A stretch of 26,351 bases of DNA from a virus. The position numbers were made by a program, and so were the translations under genes. A model generated the notes under the pieces. It made no database searches and was not told the DNA's origin. It worked only from the letters and a program-made list of their open reading frames with translations. This document shows positions 154 through 6,369 of the stretch, one piece after another. How positions within the stretch are numbered: the first letter of the stretch is position 1; each line of letters opens with the position of its first letter. The stretch is taken from IMG/VR virus record IMGVR_UViG_3300023180_000343, positions 1-26,351 of that record, one strand, 5' to 3'.

Positions 154-1157
154 AAGAACAGGTCATTGATGATTTTTTAGATTTAGATACATTGAATGCT
201 ATTGAGTATTATTATCGTAATAATGTTTCTTTTGGTTGGAAATCAAATAGAGATTTAGATTATGATTTTGGTCATTGGTCGAAAATCATTACTAGCCATT
301 CTAAAGCTTTTAATTTAGATACGAAACTTACTCCTTCGTTTGAAAATAATCATTATTACATAAATCTTATTTCCGATAAGATAGAAGAAATAATAGGAAA
401 AAGAGGTCTATATAGATGTTATTATAAGTATTATACTTATGGTACTGATGCGTATATTCATAAAGATGTTTCTTCGAAATTAGACTGGGATTCTGAATGT
501 GAGACTGTTATATTGTATCTCACACAGGATTGGAATCCTGATTGGTATGGTATGACAAATTTATATGAAGAAAACGGATATGACATATATAAATCAGTTA
601 TGCCAAAATATAATAGATTATTTATTTTTGATGGAAAGATACCTCATTCAGCCACTCCTCTCAGTAGAGCTTGTAGCGCTACTAAAAAAATATTAGTTTT
701 CAACTACATGCCGGTGAATAAAACAGATAAAGCTTTTTTATTCATTAAAAAAATTACTGAGGATTTGGGTCACGGCGACAAAACTTTATTTGAACATCTT
801 TATAATACTTATAGATTTTTAGATAATCATAGTAAACTTCCAAGTTTTGTAGCTAAAGCAGGGTTATTTCATAGTATATACGGAACTGACTATTATCATG
901 AATCCAAACAATTAAATATATCTAGATATACTGTTAGAGAATTGATCGGTGAAGAAGCTGAAAATCTAGTATACCAATTTTGTACTATGAAAAATAGAGA
1001 AGAACAAATAATAAAAGGCGATAACATGTGGCTAAAAATGTTAGAACTTTCTAATTATAGAGACCAAATGCATTATCTTTCGAAACAAGAAAATAATAAA
1101 GTCGATTATGTCATTAAAACTTTGTCTAAACAAATAAAAGAATCCGAAAATGAGTAA
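150..1157 (+). CDS. 2OG-Fe(II) oxygenase fused to an HD-like (DUF6817-type) domain
   Basis: 335 residues. The N-terminal ~190 residues look like a prolyl-hydroxylase-type 2-oxoglutarate/Fe(II) oxygenase: HKD at His104/Asp106 matches the H-x-D iron motif, a jelly-roll strand follows, and GKIPHS supplies the distal His166. Lys179/Lys180 lie near the place where the 2OG-binding basic residue is expected. The C-terminal part (about 195-300) resembles from memory the DUF6817 group of HD-like proteins: His208, His216 in an EHL helix, His241 in GLFHSIYGT, and RELIGEEAE near 263. Such oxygenases hydroxylate proteins, nucleobases or small molecules; the substrate cannot be read from sequence. The start overlaps the previous stop by ATGA and the end overlaps the exonuclease start at 1150. 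The oxygenase call is firm; the C-terminal call is weaker. Confidence 0.8.
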   Translation: MKEQVIDDFLDLDTLNAIEYYYRNNVSFGWKSNRDLDYDFGHWSKIITSHSKAFNLDTKLTPSFENNHYYINLISDKIEEIIGKRGLYRCYYKYYTYGTDAYIHKDVSSKLDWDSECETVILYLTQDWNPDWYGMTNLYEENGYDIYKSVMPKYNRLFIFDGKIPHSATPLSRACSATKKILVFNYMPVNKTDKAFLFIKKITEDLGHGDKTLFEHLYNTYRFLDNHSKLPSFVAKAGLFHSIYGTDYYHESKQLNISRYTVRELIGEEAENLVYQFCTMKNREEQIIKGDNMWLKMLELSNYRDQMHYLSKQENNKVDYVIKTLSKQIKESENE

Positions 1158-1797
1158 ATATGAACCCTATCTGATGGAAAGAGTAACTACACCTGAAGGT
1201 CGTAGATACAAGATACCTGATACAGATGAAACCTATGAGAGCGTAACAACGGCTCTCGGTAAAAACCCAGAAAAGAAGAAGTCTCTTTTTGAATGGCGTC
1301 AAAGAGTTGGTGAAGAAGAAGCCAACCGTATCAGCCGTATTGCCGCTTCAAGAGGAACAAAGGTTCACAAAATGGCCGAAGATTACCTTAATGGTGTACA
1401 AGATTATACCCAAGGTCATCTTCCACCTCACATAGAAATGTTTGAGTCAATGCGACCATACCTTGACACGAACATCGCGAGTGTATATATGCAGGAAGCG
1501 TTTCTGTTTTCTCATAAATACAAATTGGCAGGGCAAGTGGATTGCATTGCTAATTGTGATGGTTTTAGATGTGTTATAGATTTTAAAACATCATCTAAAC
1601 CGAAGAAGAAAGAATGGATTGAAGATTATTTTTTACAGTGTGCAGCATATTCGTTTATGTTTGAAGAAATGTATGGCGACGAGATACATTATAATATTGT
1701 TTTGATTGCAGTCGAGAACGATAAACCTCAAACCTTTCTTACAAAACCATATGATTATAAAAATCATGAATTTTTTACACAGAGGTTAGTATCATGA
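1150..1797 (+). CDS. PD-(D/E)XK exonuclease (RecB-like)
   Basis: 215 residues with the RecB-type nuclease layout: an early helix with GTKVH (residues 69-73), then GQVDCI with Asp131, VIDFKTSSK with Asp144 and Lys146 as the D-x-K core, and QCAAYSF with Gln163 and Tyr167 as the trailing Q-x-x-x-Y motif. These are the metal-binding and catalytic positions of the superfamily, so an active Mg-dependent DNA exonuclease is expected. In T4-like marine phages similar proteins sit among replication and recombination genes, and host DNA degradation or recombination end processing are reasonable roles. It overlaps the oxygenase gene upstream and the secreted-protein gene downstream (ATG at 1794), so it belongs to one operon. 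Confidence 0.8.
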   Translation: MSKYEPYLMERVTTPEGRRYKIPDTDETYESVTTALGKNPEKKKSLFEWRQRVGEEEANRISRIAASRGTKVHKMAEDYLNGVQDYTQGHLPPHIEMFESMRPYLDTNIASVYMQEAFLFSHKYKLAGQVDCIANCDGFRCVIDFKTSSKPKKKEWIEDYFLQCAAYSFMFEEMYGDEIHYNIVLIAVENDKPQTFLTKPYDYKNHEFFTQRLVS

Positions 1798-2375
1798 GAT
1801 TGTTACCATTTTTAAGTTTTGTTCTTTTAGTTACGTTTGCACAACATGCAAATTCACAGACTCCAATTCCATCTCCTTTTTGGAAAGAGAAAGACAAATC
1901 TATTGAACAAGTACAAGAGAAAGAAGAACCTAAATTGGAAATGTCTTTGTTTCCCACACTCATGGCTTGTAGCGACGAACAAACATTTAACGAATTTGTT
2001 AGAAGAAAGGGTTATGATTTTTCTTCTTTTACTGGAGAATCAGAAGTAGCCAAGAATATTACAGTTTTGTTTTATCATAACGAAAAGACCAATGAGTTTG
2101 CGGTTGTAAGAACAGATGGTGAACGATATTGCATTCTTGAAATGGGTAAACAGAATCTAGGTTCTACACTTGAAGCTGATAAACAAGACGTTTTTGGAAC
2201 ACCTCCGCCAGGTAGTCCTTTGTTAGCTCTTGTACCACCATCTCCTCTTCTTGAGGATGACTTTGATCCGAACCTACTTCCTGAACCTGCCGCTGGTCCA
2301 CAAGTTGTATTACTTGAACTTCCAGCAAGACCAGTGGTTAGACATGGTGGTGGTGCACTAGCTAGTCCTAATTAA
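1794..2375 (+). CDS. Small exported protein with signal peptide, unknown function
   Basis: 193 residues. Residues 1-21 form a Sec signal: a short basic start (MR), a hydrophobic core (LLPFLSFVLLVTF) and a likely cleavage after AQHANS. The mature part has a charged stretch rich in Lys and Glu (about 30-48), a compact middle with two Cys (ACSDE and RYCILE), and a Pro-rich C-terminal tail (about 135-185) that looks unstructured. No lipobox Cys directly follows the signal, so a periplasmic or virion-released protein is more likely than a lipoprotein. I do not recognise the family. The ATG overlaps the exonuclease stop and the TAA shares a base with the next ATG (TAATG), which supports both starts. 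Confidence 0.7.
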   Translation: MRLLPFLSFVLLVTFAQHANSQTPIPSPFWKEKDKSIEQVQEKEEPKLEMSLFPTLMACSDEQTFNEFVRRKGYDFSSFTGESEVAKNITVLFYHNEKTNEFAVVRTDGERYCILEMGKQNLGSTLEADKQDVFGTPPPGSPLLALVPPSPLLEDDFDPNLLPEPAAGPQVVLLELPARPVVRHGGGALASPN

Positions 2376-3679
2376 TGACCTATGAAGAATATACTGATTT
2401 TCTTCTAGCAAATGTTCATAAACAATCAAATTGTAAATTTGCTCACCTTATTATAGAATCGTCTAGAAGATGTAATTTAGTATGGAATGATAACAAAAAA
2501 ACATTAGTTGATGTTACCTTTTCTTCGGTTTATTTTCCTAATTCTAATTTTGATATCTTATTTTCAAAAACTATAGATGAAGGTTTAGATAAATGTGAAA
2601 AATATAGCCATGTTATTGTGAGTTCTATAGGATGCGTATATGAATATAAAGAAATATATGAATGTTTTTTTGAATTTGTTGAAAATGAGGAACCTTGTAG
2701 AGGCCATATAATGGCACCTCCTGATCATTCTTATGTTTGGTTACATGAACAAAGCATTTTTTTGAATTTGATGCACTGGAGAAAAATAGGAAGACCTTCT
2801 TTCGGCAGATATAGCGGATATGTTCGTGGATTTGATAGATCAAAAGAGAATATTCATCACGATTATACGCCTTATTGGATAAAGCCTAATCATGAAAAAA
2901 TAAAGGTTCAGAATTTTCCACAATCTGAATACATTTCAAAAGTATTAGAAGATGGTAAAGAAATAAAAAACTTCTTCGAAGAAAGAAATCATAAATTTTT
3001 TCTTTATCCTAAGGACACCGAAACAGAAGATTATCGCAAACTTTGTAGAGAAAGAAATGTTAGTAAACCTTTATTTTTTATTAATACGAGTAAAACATGG
3101 AAAGAAAGCTTTCGTTTAGTTCATGACAAGGGTGTTAGAAATCGTCATATTAAATATGATGTAATTTATTGTGTAGCTAGTGGCGCTATTTCTGAATATT
3201 TGTTAACTAACTATGGTCATAAACATACTAAATTAGTTATATTCGATTATAACGAATATATTCTAGAATGGAAGAAAAATTTACATATAATAAAGGATGT
3301 TGATATCGTTAATAAACATTTTGAATTTAAGATTAATAGAAATGAAATAAAAAATGTCTATATTAATAGGTTACCGGCGAAATTTGGATCCAATCATAAT
3401 GATTTTGATTGGAATAAATCTCTTGAAGAAATTGATTTACGAAATGTCGAGTATCAAAAAATTGATGTATTGGTAAATAATTTTGATATTAATGAGGATA
3501 AAAGAAATTTGATTTTTCTTTCTAATATTTTCAATTATATGCCTATGTTTTTAGAATATTCCTTTGAAACTATGTTAGAACGTCAAAAATATTTTTATTC
3601 TATTCCGAATTCTGTCATAGCATCTTGGCATAGGTTTAATTTACCTTGGATTATCGATAATTTGAATAGAGGGGATTGA
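2375..3679 (+). CDS. Unknown 434-residue protein, possible Rossmann-like C-terminal half
   Basis: No family is recognised with confidence. The N-terminal half (about 1-190) has alternating strands and helices, an acidic/aromatic stretch around HVIVSSIGCVYEYK and a GHIMAPPDHSYVWLHEQ segment, somewhat like a glycosyltransferase-type alpha/beta fold. The C-terminal half (about 260-434) has YDVIYCVASGAISEYLL followed by KLVIFDYNEYILEWKK, then NLIFLSNIFNYMPMF; the strand-turn-helix, an acidic end of strand 2 and a later hydrophobic strand resemble a SAM-methyltransferase Rossmann core, but a clear G-x-G is missing. The coding sequence is very AT-rich. The TGA stop (3677-3679) lies inside the -35 box of the next promoter, so the gene ends exactly where the RNA transcription unit begins. 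Confidence 0.65.
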   Translation: MTYEEYTDFLLANVHKQSNCKFAHLIIESSRRCNLVWNDNKKTLVDVTFSSVYFPNSNFDILFSKTIDEGLDKCEKYSHVIVSSIGCVYEYKEIYECFFEFVENEEPCRGHIMAPPDHSYVWLHEQSIFLNLMHWRKIGRPSFGRYSGYVRGFDRSKENIHHDYTPYWIKPNHEKIKVQNFPQSEYISKVLEDGKEIKNFFEERNHKFFLYPKDTETEDYRKLCRERNVSKPLFFINTSKTWKESFRLVHDKGVRNRHIKYDVIYCVASGAISEYLLTNYGHKHTKLVIFDYNEYILEWKKNLHIIKDVDIVNKHFEFKINRNEIKNVYINRLPAKFGSNHNDFDWNKSLEEIDLRNVEYQKIDVLVNNFDINEDKRNLIFLSNIFNYMPMFLEYSFETMLERQKYFYSIPNSVIASWHRFNLPWIIDNLNRGD

Positions 3680-3704
3680 CATTGTAACCGGATTATGATA
3701 TAAT
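3676..3704 (+). promoter_or_regulatory. Consensus sigma70-type promoter for the RNA region
   Basis: TTGACA at 3676-3681 and TATAAT at 3699-3704 are perfect boxes with a 17-base spacer. Transcription should start near 3711-3712, just ahead of the tRNA-like hairpin. The -10 context TATGATATAATGGA is identical to that of the promoter ahead of gp32. It would be used by unmodified host RNA polymerase. Confidence 0.85.
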
Positions 3705-3716
3705 GGATGCATAAAT

Positions 3717-3800
3717 AGAAACATACTAGGTTCAGTACGGTGGGACGTGCAGATGGACAACACTAGGACAAGGTTCGAATCCAAAACTTAGTATGTTTCT
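3717..3800 (+). ncRNA. tRNA-like structured RNA or decayed tRNA, long terminal helix
   Basis: Bases 3717-3731 pair with 3786-3800 over 15 positions with only one G.U, enclosing 54 bases. Inside are tRNA signatures: a D-arm-like GTTC (3730-3733)/GGAC (3743-3746) around AGTACGGTG, and a T-loop TTCGAAT (3774-3780) flanked by GG/CC. A 7-pair acceptor register ACATACT/AGTATGT (3721-3727/3790-3796) is available. However, the T stem has only two good pairs, the anticodon arm does not form a proper 5-pair stem with T33, and no CCA follows. It is therefore not a standard tRNA. It sits at the predicted 5' end of the tmRNA transcript. It may be a degenerate tRNA, a processing signal for the tmRNA, or a transcript-stabilising element. 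Confidence 0.5.
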
Positions 3801-3872
3801 TAATCAGAATAATCGTATAATCGGTGAACTGGAGGCATTGCGGACGGGAGTTCGATTCTCCCCACCTCCACC

Positions 3873-3972
3873 AAAAGCGTACTATGGTTTGACCTGAACT
3901 TTGACATTGCGAGATAAGGGAAACCTGACGTAGATAATCTTAGGATAGGAGTTAGGATAGTATGCTTTTGAT
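3873..3972 (+). other. Intervening segment of the permuted tmRNA
   Basis: The segment between the CCA end and the 5' G of the coding piece is removed in two-piece tmRNAs. Here 3873-3885 pairs with 3957-3969 over 13 positions (one G.U), stacking directly on the acceptor stem, so the precursor would form one long helix that brings both processing sites together. Inside it, 3911-3930 is a near copy of 3998-4016 in the coding piece (GAGATAAGG then AAACTGACG-like bases), which points to an internal duplication. Confidence 0.75.
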
Positions 3973-4059
3973 GGGGGTGACAAGGTTTCGACGTGGTGAG
4001 ATAAGGTAAACTGACGATTCATCAGGCGAATGATGTAAAACTAGCAAACTAAAGTAAAC

Positions 4060-4104
4060 GCAAACGATGCTTACTTTGAGCCTGAAATGGCTCTAGCTGC
4101 CTAA
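4060..4104 (+). other. tmRNA tag reading frame, ANDAYFEPEMALAA
   Basis: The resume codon GCA (4060-4062) starts a 14-codon frame that ends at TAA 4102-4104, with a second in-frame TAG at 4108-4110. The tag begins with AND and ends with ALAA, the ClpXP-recognised end. The bases before the resume codon keep A at -4 and T at -5, as in the E. coli RNA. The central YFEPEM part is unusual. Confidence 0.9.
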
Positions 4105-4111
4105 GAGTAGC

Positions 4112-4135
4112 AGGAGGAGTTGCTCCGTCCTTTTT
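4112..4135 (+). terminator. Rho-independent terminator of the tmRNA
   Basis: AGGAGGAG (4112-4119) pairs with CTCC-G-TCCT (4123-4131) with one bulged G around loop TTG, followed directly by a T run (4131-4135). An alternative helix, TTGCTCCGT (4120-4128) with ACGGAGCAA (4142-4150), could form instead and would compete with the terminator stem. Confidence 0.65.
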
Positions 4136-4184
4136 ACCCAAACGGAGCAAATTTTACACACACAACACACACAGGAGAAAAGTT

Positions 4185-4352
4185 ATGAGTAAAATTAAAA
4201 ATTGGTTTAAGTCTTGGATTACAGCAAGAGAAAGAGAAGCTATTACACGTTCGGCAATCTATTACAATCGCCACCGTGTCAATCTAGAATCTGCGGTTGA
4301 CCGTGTAGACCTTGATGCAAGGCTGCGCAAAGCAGGATACGGAGGAATCTAA
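4185..4352 (+). CDS. Small hypothetical protein, 55 aa
   Basis: The frame runs from ATG 4185 to TAA 4350-4352 and has a strong ribosome-binding site (AGGAGAAAAG) eight or so bases upstream. The product starts MSKIKNWFKSW, has a basic, helix-prone middle (TAREREAITRSAIYYNRHR) and ends RKAGYGGI. It is rich in Arg and looks helical throughout. The next gene starts two bases after its stop and uses the GGAGG inside its 3' end as ribosome-binding site, so the two are coupled. Small proteins of this type are common in T4-like marine phages, but no function can be given. Confidence 0.75.
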   Translation: MSKIKNWFKSWITAREREAITRSAIYYNRHRVNLESAVDRVDLDARLRKAGYGGI

Positions 4353-4990: not shown

Positions 4991-5169
4991 ACAATCACGA
5001 CGATAAATTGGATATGAGAATTGAGAAGGCTCTGAAACGGCGTTTTCATATTGAATGCGTTAAGCGTGATGTTTCAATGGCTTATATGATTAAAGATTAT
5101 ATTCGTAAACAGCTTCGTTTTTGGGATGAACAAGAACGAAAGAAAGGTGTGAGACCAGATAATGATTGA
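4987..5169 (+). CDS. Ribbon-helix-helix-like small protein, 60 aa
   Basis: The pattern of a short strand (DMRIEKALKRRF), a first helix (HIECVKRD) and a second helix after VSMAYMIKDYIRKQL resembles the MetJ/Arc/CopG ribbon-helix-helix fold used for DNA-binding repressors. The protein is strongly charged and ends in a hydrophilic tail. It overlaps the hydrolase stop (ATGA) and the gp33 start (5162). A role as a transcriptional regulator is inferred from fold-like pattern only; no operator can be pointed to. Confidence 0.6.
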   Translation: MNNHDDKLDMRIEKALKRRFHIECVKRDVSMAYMIKDYIRKQLRFWDEQERKKGVRPDND

Positions 5170-5389
5170 TTCGAATAATTTTTGTATTCAAATTGAAAGA
5201 TTTGCAAATGAAAATAGATTAGACCTCATGGATGCGGTCTTATTTTATTGCGAAGAACATGGAATGGAAGTAGAAACTGCGGCCACTCTTCTTCATCGTA
5301 ATAAGAAAATAATGGAGCTTCTTGAAATAGAGGCAAAAGAAAATCGGTTATTAAAAGATAACACGATGTTTGCTACACTCCCCATTTAG
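5162..5389 (+). CDS. 33: Late-promoter transcription coactivator, gp33-like
   Basis: 75 residues matching the gp33 family of T4-like phages: an N-terminal IQIERFANENRLDLMDAVLF helix pair, the YCEEHGMEVETAATLL turn, and a last helix IMELLEIEAKENRLL. In T4, gp33 binds the RNA polymerase beta flap and, with gp55 and the gp45 clamp, activates late promoters. Its place close to gp32 is as in T4 (33-59-32), but no gp59 lies between. The TATAAATA motifs ahead of tail genes in this window fit its presence. The stop codon overlaps a small CCCC/GGGG hairpin (5380-5392) that abuts the -35 box of the gp32 promoter. Confidence 0.8.
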   Translation: MIDSNNFCIQIERFANENRLDLMDAVLFYCEEHGMEVETAATLLHRNKKIMELLEIEAKENRLLKDNTMFATLPI

Positions 5390-5392
5390 GGG

Positions 5393-5421
5393 TTGACAAT
5401 CATATACAAATATGATATAAT
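5393..5421 (+). promoter_or_regulatory. Consensus sigma70-type promoter for gp32
   Basis: TTGACA (5393-5398) and TATAAT (5416-5421) with a 17-base spacer. Bases around the -10 (TATGATATAATGGA) are the same as at 3693-3706, and GGGG precedes both -35 boxes (directly here, with one base between at the other). The leader to the gp32 start is about 50 bases and ends with a GGAG ribosome-binding site. Confidence 0.85.
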
Positions 5422-5478: not shown

Positions 5479-6369
5479 ATGAATACATTCGCAGATATGA
5501 AGAAAAACAAAAAGTCACTGTACGACAAAATCGTACAAGAAACAAACAAAATGCAGTCCGGTGAAAAAGGTTCAGGTGATGACCGCTTCTGGCAACCAGA
5601 AGTAGACAAAGCAGGTAACGGTTCTGCAATCATCCGTTTTCTACCAGCACCACAAGGTGAAAGTCTACCATGGGTTCGATTGTTCTCACATGGTTTTCAA
5701 GGCCCTGGTGGTTGGTACATCGAAAACTCTCTCACTACTCTAGGTGAGCAAGATCCAGTTAGTGAATACAACACGATGCTTTGGAATCGTGGTGATGACG
5801 CTGGTAAAGATCAAGCTCGTACTCAGAAGCGTCGTCTTTCTTACATCAGCAACATTTATGTTGTAAAAGATCCAGCACGACCAGAACGCGAAGGTAATGT
5901 TTACCTTTACAAGTACGGTAAGAAAATCTTTGATAAGATTAACGATATGATGCACCCAGAGTTCGATGATGAAACTCCAGTTAACCCATTCGACTTCTGG
6001 GAAGGCGCAAACTTCCGTATGAAGATTCGTAACTTCGAAGGTTATCGTAACTATGATAAGTCCGAGTTTGGTTCACCATCTGCACTGTTGGATGACGACG
6101 ATGAACTCGAAGCCGTTTGGGGTAAAGAGTTTTCTCTTCAAGAGTTTCTTGACCCTAAGAACTTTAAGACTTACGCGGAACTCAAAACCAGAATGACTCG
6201 TGTTCTTGGTCTTGAAGCAGTATCGTCTGGTAACAAATCATTTGCTGACGATGTTGCTGAAGCAGAAGATTCGTTTGGTTCTTCAGATGCAGATGAACTT
6301 CCATGGAAGTCTGAAGAATCAGAAGATGATGATATGTCTTTCTTCAAGAAGTTAGCTGAAGAGGCATAA
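5479..6369 (+). CDS. 32: Single-stranded DNA-binding protein, gp32-like
   Basis: 296 residues, close to T4 gp32 (301). The basic N-terminus (MKKNKKSLYDK) corresponds to the region for cooperative binding, the core holds RFWQP, IIRFLPAP, LFSHGF, YVVKDPA, LYKYGKKIFDKIND and PFDFWEGANF, and the C-terminus (about 250-290) is a highly acidic tail followed by FFKKLAEEA, the part that recruits partner proteins in T4. It coats single-stranded DNA in replication, repair and recombination. The T4 zinc site is gone: His71 remains, but the three zinc cysteines correspond to Ser84, Asp92 and Ser95, and the protein has no Cys at all. Codon use is less AT-rich than its neighbours, fitting high expression. 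It has its own promoter and terminator. Confidence 0.95.
   Translation: MNTFADMKKNKKSLYDKIVQETNKMQSGEKGSGDDRFWQPEVDKAGNGSAIIRFLPAPQGESLPWVRLFSHGFQGPGGWYIENSLTTLGEQDPVSEYNTMLWNRGDDAGKDQARTQKRRLSYISNIYVVKDPARPEREGNVYLYKYGKKIFDKINDMMHPEFDDETPVNPFDFWEGANFRMKIRNFEGYRNYDKSEFGSPSALLDDDDELEAVWGKEFSLQEFLDPKNFKTYAELKTRMTRVLGLEAVSSGNKSFADDVAEAEDSFGSSDADELPWKSEESEDDDMSFFKKLAEEA

Follow-up and report, generated by a model that had tools for sequence, protein, structure and literature searches.

The locus described here raises the question whether a T4-like phage carries a working two-piece tmRNA (ssrA) of its own, to which bacterial type this RNA belongs, and how the phage could profit from it. It is located in the virus record IMGVR_UViG_3300023180_000343, a linear genome fragment of 26,351 bp that was analysed over its whole length and is called the window in the following. 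With a probability of roughly 85%, we regard the locus as a functional ssrA gene belonging to the phage, circularly permuted and betaproteobacterial in type.

A complete circularly permuted tmRNA gene

The gene occupies positions 3801-4157 of the window (Table 1). A permuted tmRNA with the tag ANDAYFEPEMALAA is predicted by ARAGORN at 3781-4195. Of the Rfam models, neither of which contains pseudoknots, tmRNA_permuted (RF04321) matches positions 3811-4104 over model positions 1-213 with 142.2 bits (E 2.5e-28, cut-off 47 bits), and beta_tmRNA (RF01850) matches 3762-4156 with 137.8 bits (cut-off 84 bits). Such a match is far beyond chance. A first-pass annotation, made from the letters alone, had proposed a permuted tmRNA of the two-piece type in a phage and had named ARAGORN and the Rfam models as the check; both programs agree with it, and the flanking genes are T4-like.

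In the gene, the piece with T arm and CCA end precedes the 5' piece, and an intervening segment lies between them. The 3' piece consists of one strand of the inter-piece helix, the T arm GGGAG-TTCGATT-CTCCC, the acceptor strand CACCTCC (3863-3869), the discriminator A (3870) and CCA (3871-3873). After exactly 99 nt (3874-3972), the 5' piece begins with GGGGGTG (3973-3979), followed by the GGTTTCGACG signature at 3984-3993, the tag frame and a 3' hairpin of the betaproteobacterial type. GGGGGTG and CACCTCC form seven base pairs, including G3975.U3867, the G3.U70 pair that serves as alanine identity element. The tag frame is open after the resume site and encodes a hydrophobic C-terminus. The helix joining the two pieces is predicted by RNAalifold with pairs that have changed on both sides in the related locus L078. 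The first-pass annotation had listed these elements, from the T arm to the resume codon and a 14-residue tag ending in ALAA, and every one of them is present. Its extent of 3801-4135 located the gene but ends too early on the 3' side, where the hairpin of the 5' piece reaches about 4157.

Table 1. Features of the tmRNA locus and its neighbouring genes in the window.
Feature	Position	Strand	Remarks
Exonuclease	1150..1797	+	PHROG 298, E 2e-67; upstream marker of the conserved slot
Sigma-70 promoter TTGACA-17-TATAAT	3676..3704	+	perfect, 12/12 matches; extended -10 (TG)
Leader hairpin	3716..3800	+	about 85 nt, 16-bp stem, tRNA-like motifs; between promoter and tmRNA
tRNA-like 3' piece	3801..3873	+	RF04321 and RF01850 alignments; pairing with the 5' piece shows compensatory changes in L078
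Intervening segment	3874..3972	+	99 nt, predicted to be excised; closing stem AAAAGCGTACTAT/ATAGTATGCTTTT
Partial, degenerate duplicate of the beginning of the 5' piece	3899..3930	+	inside the intervening segment
mRNA-like 5' piece	3973..4157	+	RF01850 alignment to 4156; hairpin fold of 4100-4157
Tag reading frame ANDAYFEPEMALAA-stop	4060..4104	+	resume codon GCA; 14 residues, ends in ALAA
gp33-like late-transcription coactivator	5162..5389	+	PHROG 254, E 4.6e-12; downstream neighbour in the slot
gp32-like single-strand DNA-binding protein	5479..6369	+	PHROG 224, E 3.3e-112

Type and ancestry of the RNA

The beta model leads the alpha and cyanobacterial models by more than 90 bits. A SAR11/alpha origin (RF01849, 39.5 bits, cut-off 50) and a cyanobacterial type (44.9 bits, cut-off 70) were both rejected, as each score lies below its cut-off. 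The tmRNA of the window is thus clearly of the betaproteobacterial type, an assignment that concerns the RNA and not the host of the phage. Further beta-type phage tmRNAs in IMG/VR are found at the loci L078, L057, L058, L045, L051 and L029.

A maximum-likelihood tree was built from 77 permuted tmRNAs; in it, the window is placed together with its near copy L124 and with L078 (support 99/94). Deep resolution of this tree is weak and its bootstrap had not settled; because of these poorly resolved deep branches, a bacterial donor cannot be named. A search of GenBank phages at the DNA level returned only one short match to the T arm, and a DNA pattern aimed at permuted genes in bacteria mostly picked up one-piece genes.

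A conserved slot in T4-like genomes

The T4-like gene set of the window comprises exonuclease, endolysin, gp33, gp32, tail tube, head closure, baseplate hub and wedge, and gp6. The gp6 protein is 35-38% identical to its counterparts in Synechococcus phage S-B43, Caulobacter phage Cr30, HTVC008M and Melnitz, and the top-ranked match of gp32 is an uncultured marine virus (59% identity). The genes are arranged in the order exonuclease, two genes, tmRNA, small genes, endolysin, gp33 and gp32, which places the tmRNA between exonuclease and gp33 on the same strand, as in Melnitz and HTVC008M.

This slot recurs in many IMG/VR contigs. Out of 57 loci with a permuted tmRNA call, 39 share their strand with at least one of the four genes exonuclease, endolysin, gp33 and gp32; the exonuclease lies upstream in 29, and endolysin, gp33 or gp32 downstream in 34. 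In one related marine virus region, exonuclease and gp33 adjoin, and the record of this virus is without a match to the permuted model.

Although the first-pass annotation implied novelty and named only one-piece tmRNAs as known in phages, two-piece phage tmRNAs had already been published: the OM43 phage Melnitz was described in 2022 with one at the same position, just upstream of gp33, and of 133 tmRNA structures from phages, 53 were called two-piece, 50 of these being of marine or aquatic origin (PMC9004378). The paper on the tmRNA database contains 79 tmRNA sequences from phages, along with the merged permuted model (PMC11915505). The tmRNA of the window is therefore not a first but a good new example of an RNA known from related marine phages. 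What it adds is a beta-type RNA in the Melnitz slot, an exchangeable intervening hairpin and a leader hairpin.

Melnitz (MZ577097, ssrA at 45984-46436) is, like the window, T4-like and carries its permuted two-piece tmRNA in the order exonuclease, tmRNA, gp33, gp32. Its tag ANDNYVPVDYALAA is similar in length to that of the window, whereas its RNA is of the alpha type (106.7 bits to alpha_tmRNA). The Melnitz tmRNA is also followed by a glutamine riboswitch, for which neither the window nor the surroundings of the gene gave a match. Pelagibacter phage HTVC008M (KC465899, 145161-145370; loci L251 and L260) has a permuted tmRNA that is absent from the annotation of its record. It lies between exonuclease and the late-promoter transcription factor (gp33), again the slot of the window, but is of the alpha type (83.8 bits) with the tag ANFNEYALAA.

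The permuted tmRNAs of Betaproteobacteria (RF01850) agree with the window in how their parts are ordered, in the tRNA-like domain and in the 3' hairpin; the few bacterial copies sampled have intervening segments of 4 to 33 nt and mostly ten-residue tags, compared to 99 nt and 14 residues here. L078 (IMGVR_UViG_3300017697_000632), which, near copies aside, stands closest to the window in the tree, is beta-type (148.8 bits) and occupies the same slot, but it has an intervening segment of only 28 nt and lacks the leader hairpin.

One slot thus carries RNAs of different bacterial lineages, since alpha-type tmRNAs (in the SAR11 and OM43 phages) and the beta-type RNA of the window are found at this fixed T4-like position. 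Replacement in place and repeated acquisition are the natural readings, and the mixture points to a ribosome-rescue RNA that was replaced or separately acquired during host changes. The type of a phage tmRNA need not match its host: Melnitz, which infects OM43, has a permuted alpha-type RNA, while the Methylophilaceae genomes sampled have one-piece tmRNAs.

Promoter and leader hairpin

The perfect promoter upstream of the gene predicts a transcription start at about 3711. Sites of this kind occur twice in the window, with 0.05 expected; the second, also extended, lies at 5393-5421 just upstream of gp32. The hexamers are retained in L124 (TATAAT), L316 (TAGAAT) and L078 (TATACT), with differing spacers. 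Across 37 loci, 12 have a promoter site matching at 10 or more of the 12 positions; the promoter is hence not strong in every relative. The ssrA of Melnitz was likewise placed after an early promoter by its authors (PMC9004378).

Between promoter and tmRNA, the transcript would form a leader hairpin with a folding z of -4.4, and none of 200 shuffled sequences was equally stable. It is conserved in L316 (84/85 identical positions) and L124 (83/85) and absent from more distant relatives, including L078. The hairpin contains a D-arm-like hairpin and the T-loop-like motif GGTTCGAATCC. It was, however, not recognised as a tRNA or another known RNA: ARAGORN gives no match, the Rfam match is at chance level (E 5.3), and only two of five stem pairs form when it is read as a T arm. 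Nor does its similarity to the intervening segment or to the tmRNA exceed that of shuffled sequences.

An exchangeable intervening segment with a covarying closing stem

Rfam models depict the intervening segment as unpaired. Over 43 distinct intervening segments, however, the ten closing pairs are standard in 85% of cases versus 59 +/- 2% when the 3' arms are dealt out anew (2000 shuffles, maximum 68%); as these segments are mostly from interrelated phages, with three from bacteria, the shuffles do not give a strict probability. Shifted registers reach 33-56% pairing, and G-C, A-U, U-A and C-G are mixed at the same pairs. This in-register contrast together with the mixture of pairs is hard to explain without a covarying closing stem. 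The stem is not a phage invention, since it is also present in three bacterial beta-type genes (L266, L268 and L270).

In the sister phage L316, the intervening segment shares 50 of 99 positions with that of the window, with 23 gaps, and was therefore replaced wholesale. Both segments are bounded by a perfect stem, the sequences of the two stems being unrelated beyond AAAAG/CTTTT. Within the segment of the window, the stretch 3899-3930 aligns locally to about 3986-4016 over 31 columns, a match reached by none of 1000 shuffles. This degenerate copy is limited to the present phage and its near copies and is absent from L316.

Conservation of the mature RNA and variation of the tags

Despite the exchanged intervening segment, the mature RNA is 98% identical between the window and L316: 69/73 positions agree in the T piece, 131/132 in the 5' piece and 52/53 in the 3' hairpin, compared to 26/35 in the promoter region and 148/168 in the next reading frame. 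This pattern is a purifying one. The tag frame is preserved in all three relatives compared. L316 encodes ANDAYFEPETALAA, with an exchange of M to T, L124 encodes ANDAYFEPEMALLAA after an in-frame insertion of 3 nt, and L078 encodes ANDDVYFEDFALAA, which has the same length as the tag of the window.

The common bacterial tag has the ten-residue form ANDxxxALAA. Tags of 14 residues are found in the window, L078, L046 and L048. In addition, the permuted viral tmRNAs L047, L070 and L110 have tags that end in ANA instead of the usual LAA (ANDSHFLQAANA, ANDSSFLMTANA and ANDSTYALRANA), which may change the degradation of tagged proteins.

Proposed function and alternative explanations

Transcription from the strong sigma-70 promoter by the host RNA polymerase would take place probably early in infection and yield a single precursor, in which leader hairpin and 3' (T-arm) piece are followed by the intervening hairpin and the 5' piece. 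Host tRNA-processing enzymes would then remove the intervening hairpin, RNase P cutting at GGGGGTG and 3' nucleases trimming to CCA, and the two RNA pieces would stay joined by acceptor stem and inter-piece helix. Charging with alanine is expected via the G3.U70 pair. The RNA would act together with SmpB of the host, a dependence proposed because no SmpB gene was found in the window, which as a genome fragment leaves room for one in the rest of the genome. Ribosomes stalled on cut or incomplete mRNAs would be rescued and AANDAYFEPEMALAA added to the unfinished proteins for proteolysis. Cleavage, alanylation, SmpB action, tagging and proteolysis are proposed here by analogy to established tmRNA biology. 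Ribosomes might in this way stay in supply during the breakdown of host nucleic acid by the phage, and the phage would presumably benefit from the freeing of ribosomes from cleaved mRNAs, from recycling, or from both.

A working tmRNA could also serve mainly in marking host or abortive proteins for degradation and thus amino-acid recycling, or in redirecting tagged proteins via a phage-specific tag, rather than in freeing ribosomes. Recycling of host proteins was proposed by the authors of the Melnitz study (PMC9004378), and the tags of this group depart from ANDxxxALAA in length (14 residues) and C-terminus (ANA ends). The tag of the window, on the other hand, ends in ALAA, an ordinary ClpXP-type degron, and numerous phages carry ordinary ten-residue tags in this slot. 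We consider this emphasis rather unlikely. A more far-reaching idea takes the conserved leader hairpin, together with the intervening hairpin that covaries and is exchangeable, as a maturation device tuned by the phage. In this view, the intervening loop would be an exchangeable site where foreign RNA can land, and the extended tag would send tagged proteins along a route other than that of the host's tag; this is speculative, and we regard it as quite unlikely.

That the gene is a functionless passenger, captured from a host and now decaying, appears very improbable. The degenerate duplicate of tmRNA sequence within the intervening segment could be seen as a sign of decay, and capture would be easy with ssrA being a known integration target (PMC9004378). 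Yet the mature parts are nearly invariant while the segment between them was exchanged, compensatory changes are found in the closing stem and in the inter-piece helix, tag frames are intact in dozens of phages at one conserved slot, and the promoter hexamers are conserved. Just as doubtful is a decoy that competes with the host tmRNA or sequesters SmpB and thereby blocks host rescue. Its precedent, as cited in PMC11915505, is mycobacteriophage DS6A, whose tag-less tmRNA is reported to act in this way when expressed in E. coli; the DS6A RNA has no tag frame, whereas in the window every catalytic and coding part is intact, and the relatives have preserved their tag frames. Bacterial contamination or a chimeric contig, suggested by the bacterial type of the tmRNA, has a practically negligible chance given T4-like genes on both flanks and the same gene order in independent contigs and in the isolates Melnitz and HTVC008M.

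The differing tags, intervening segments and leader provide natural variants with which the advantage that a phage draws from having its own trans-translation can be studied, as can the maturation of two-piece tmRNAs.

Further observations at the compared loci

Directly upstream of the tmRNA promoter, positions 2375-3679 encode a protein of 434 aa that is without a PHROG match and matched only contigs of this same phage in a scan of viral contigs and by tblastn among the loci compared. The tags predicted for L006, L085, L091 and L054 are very long, with 22-27 residues, and some of them may be ARAGORN errors. Finally, the contig of L046, which also has a permuted tmRNA, carries a manA RNA motif at 5575-5791 (RF01745, 63.4 bits).
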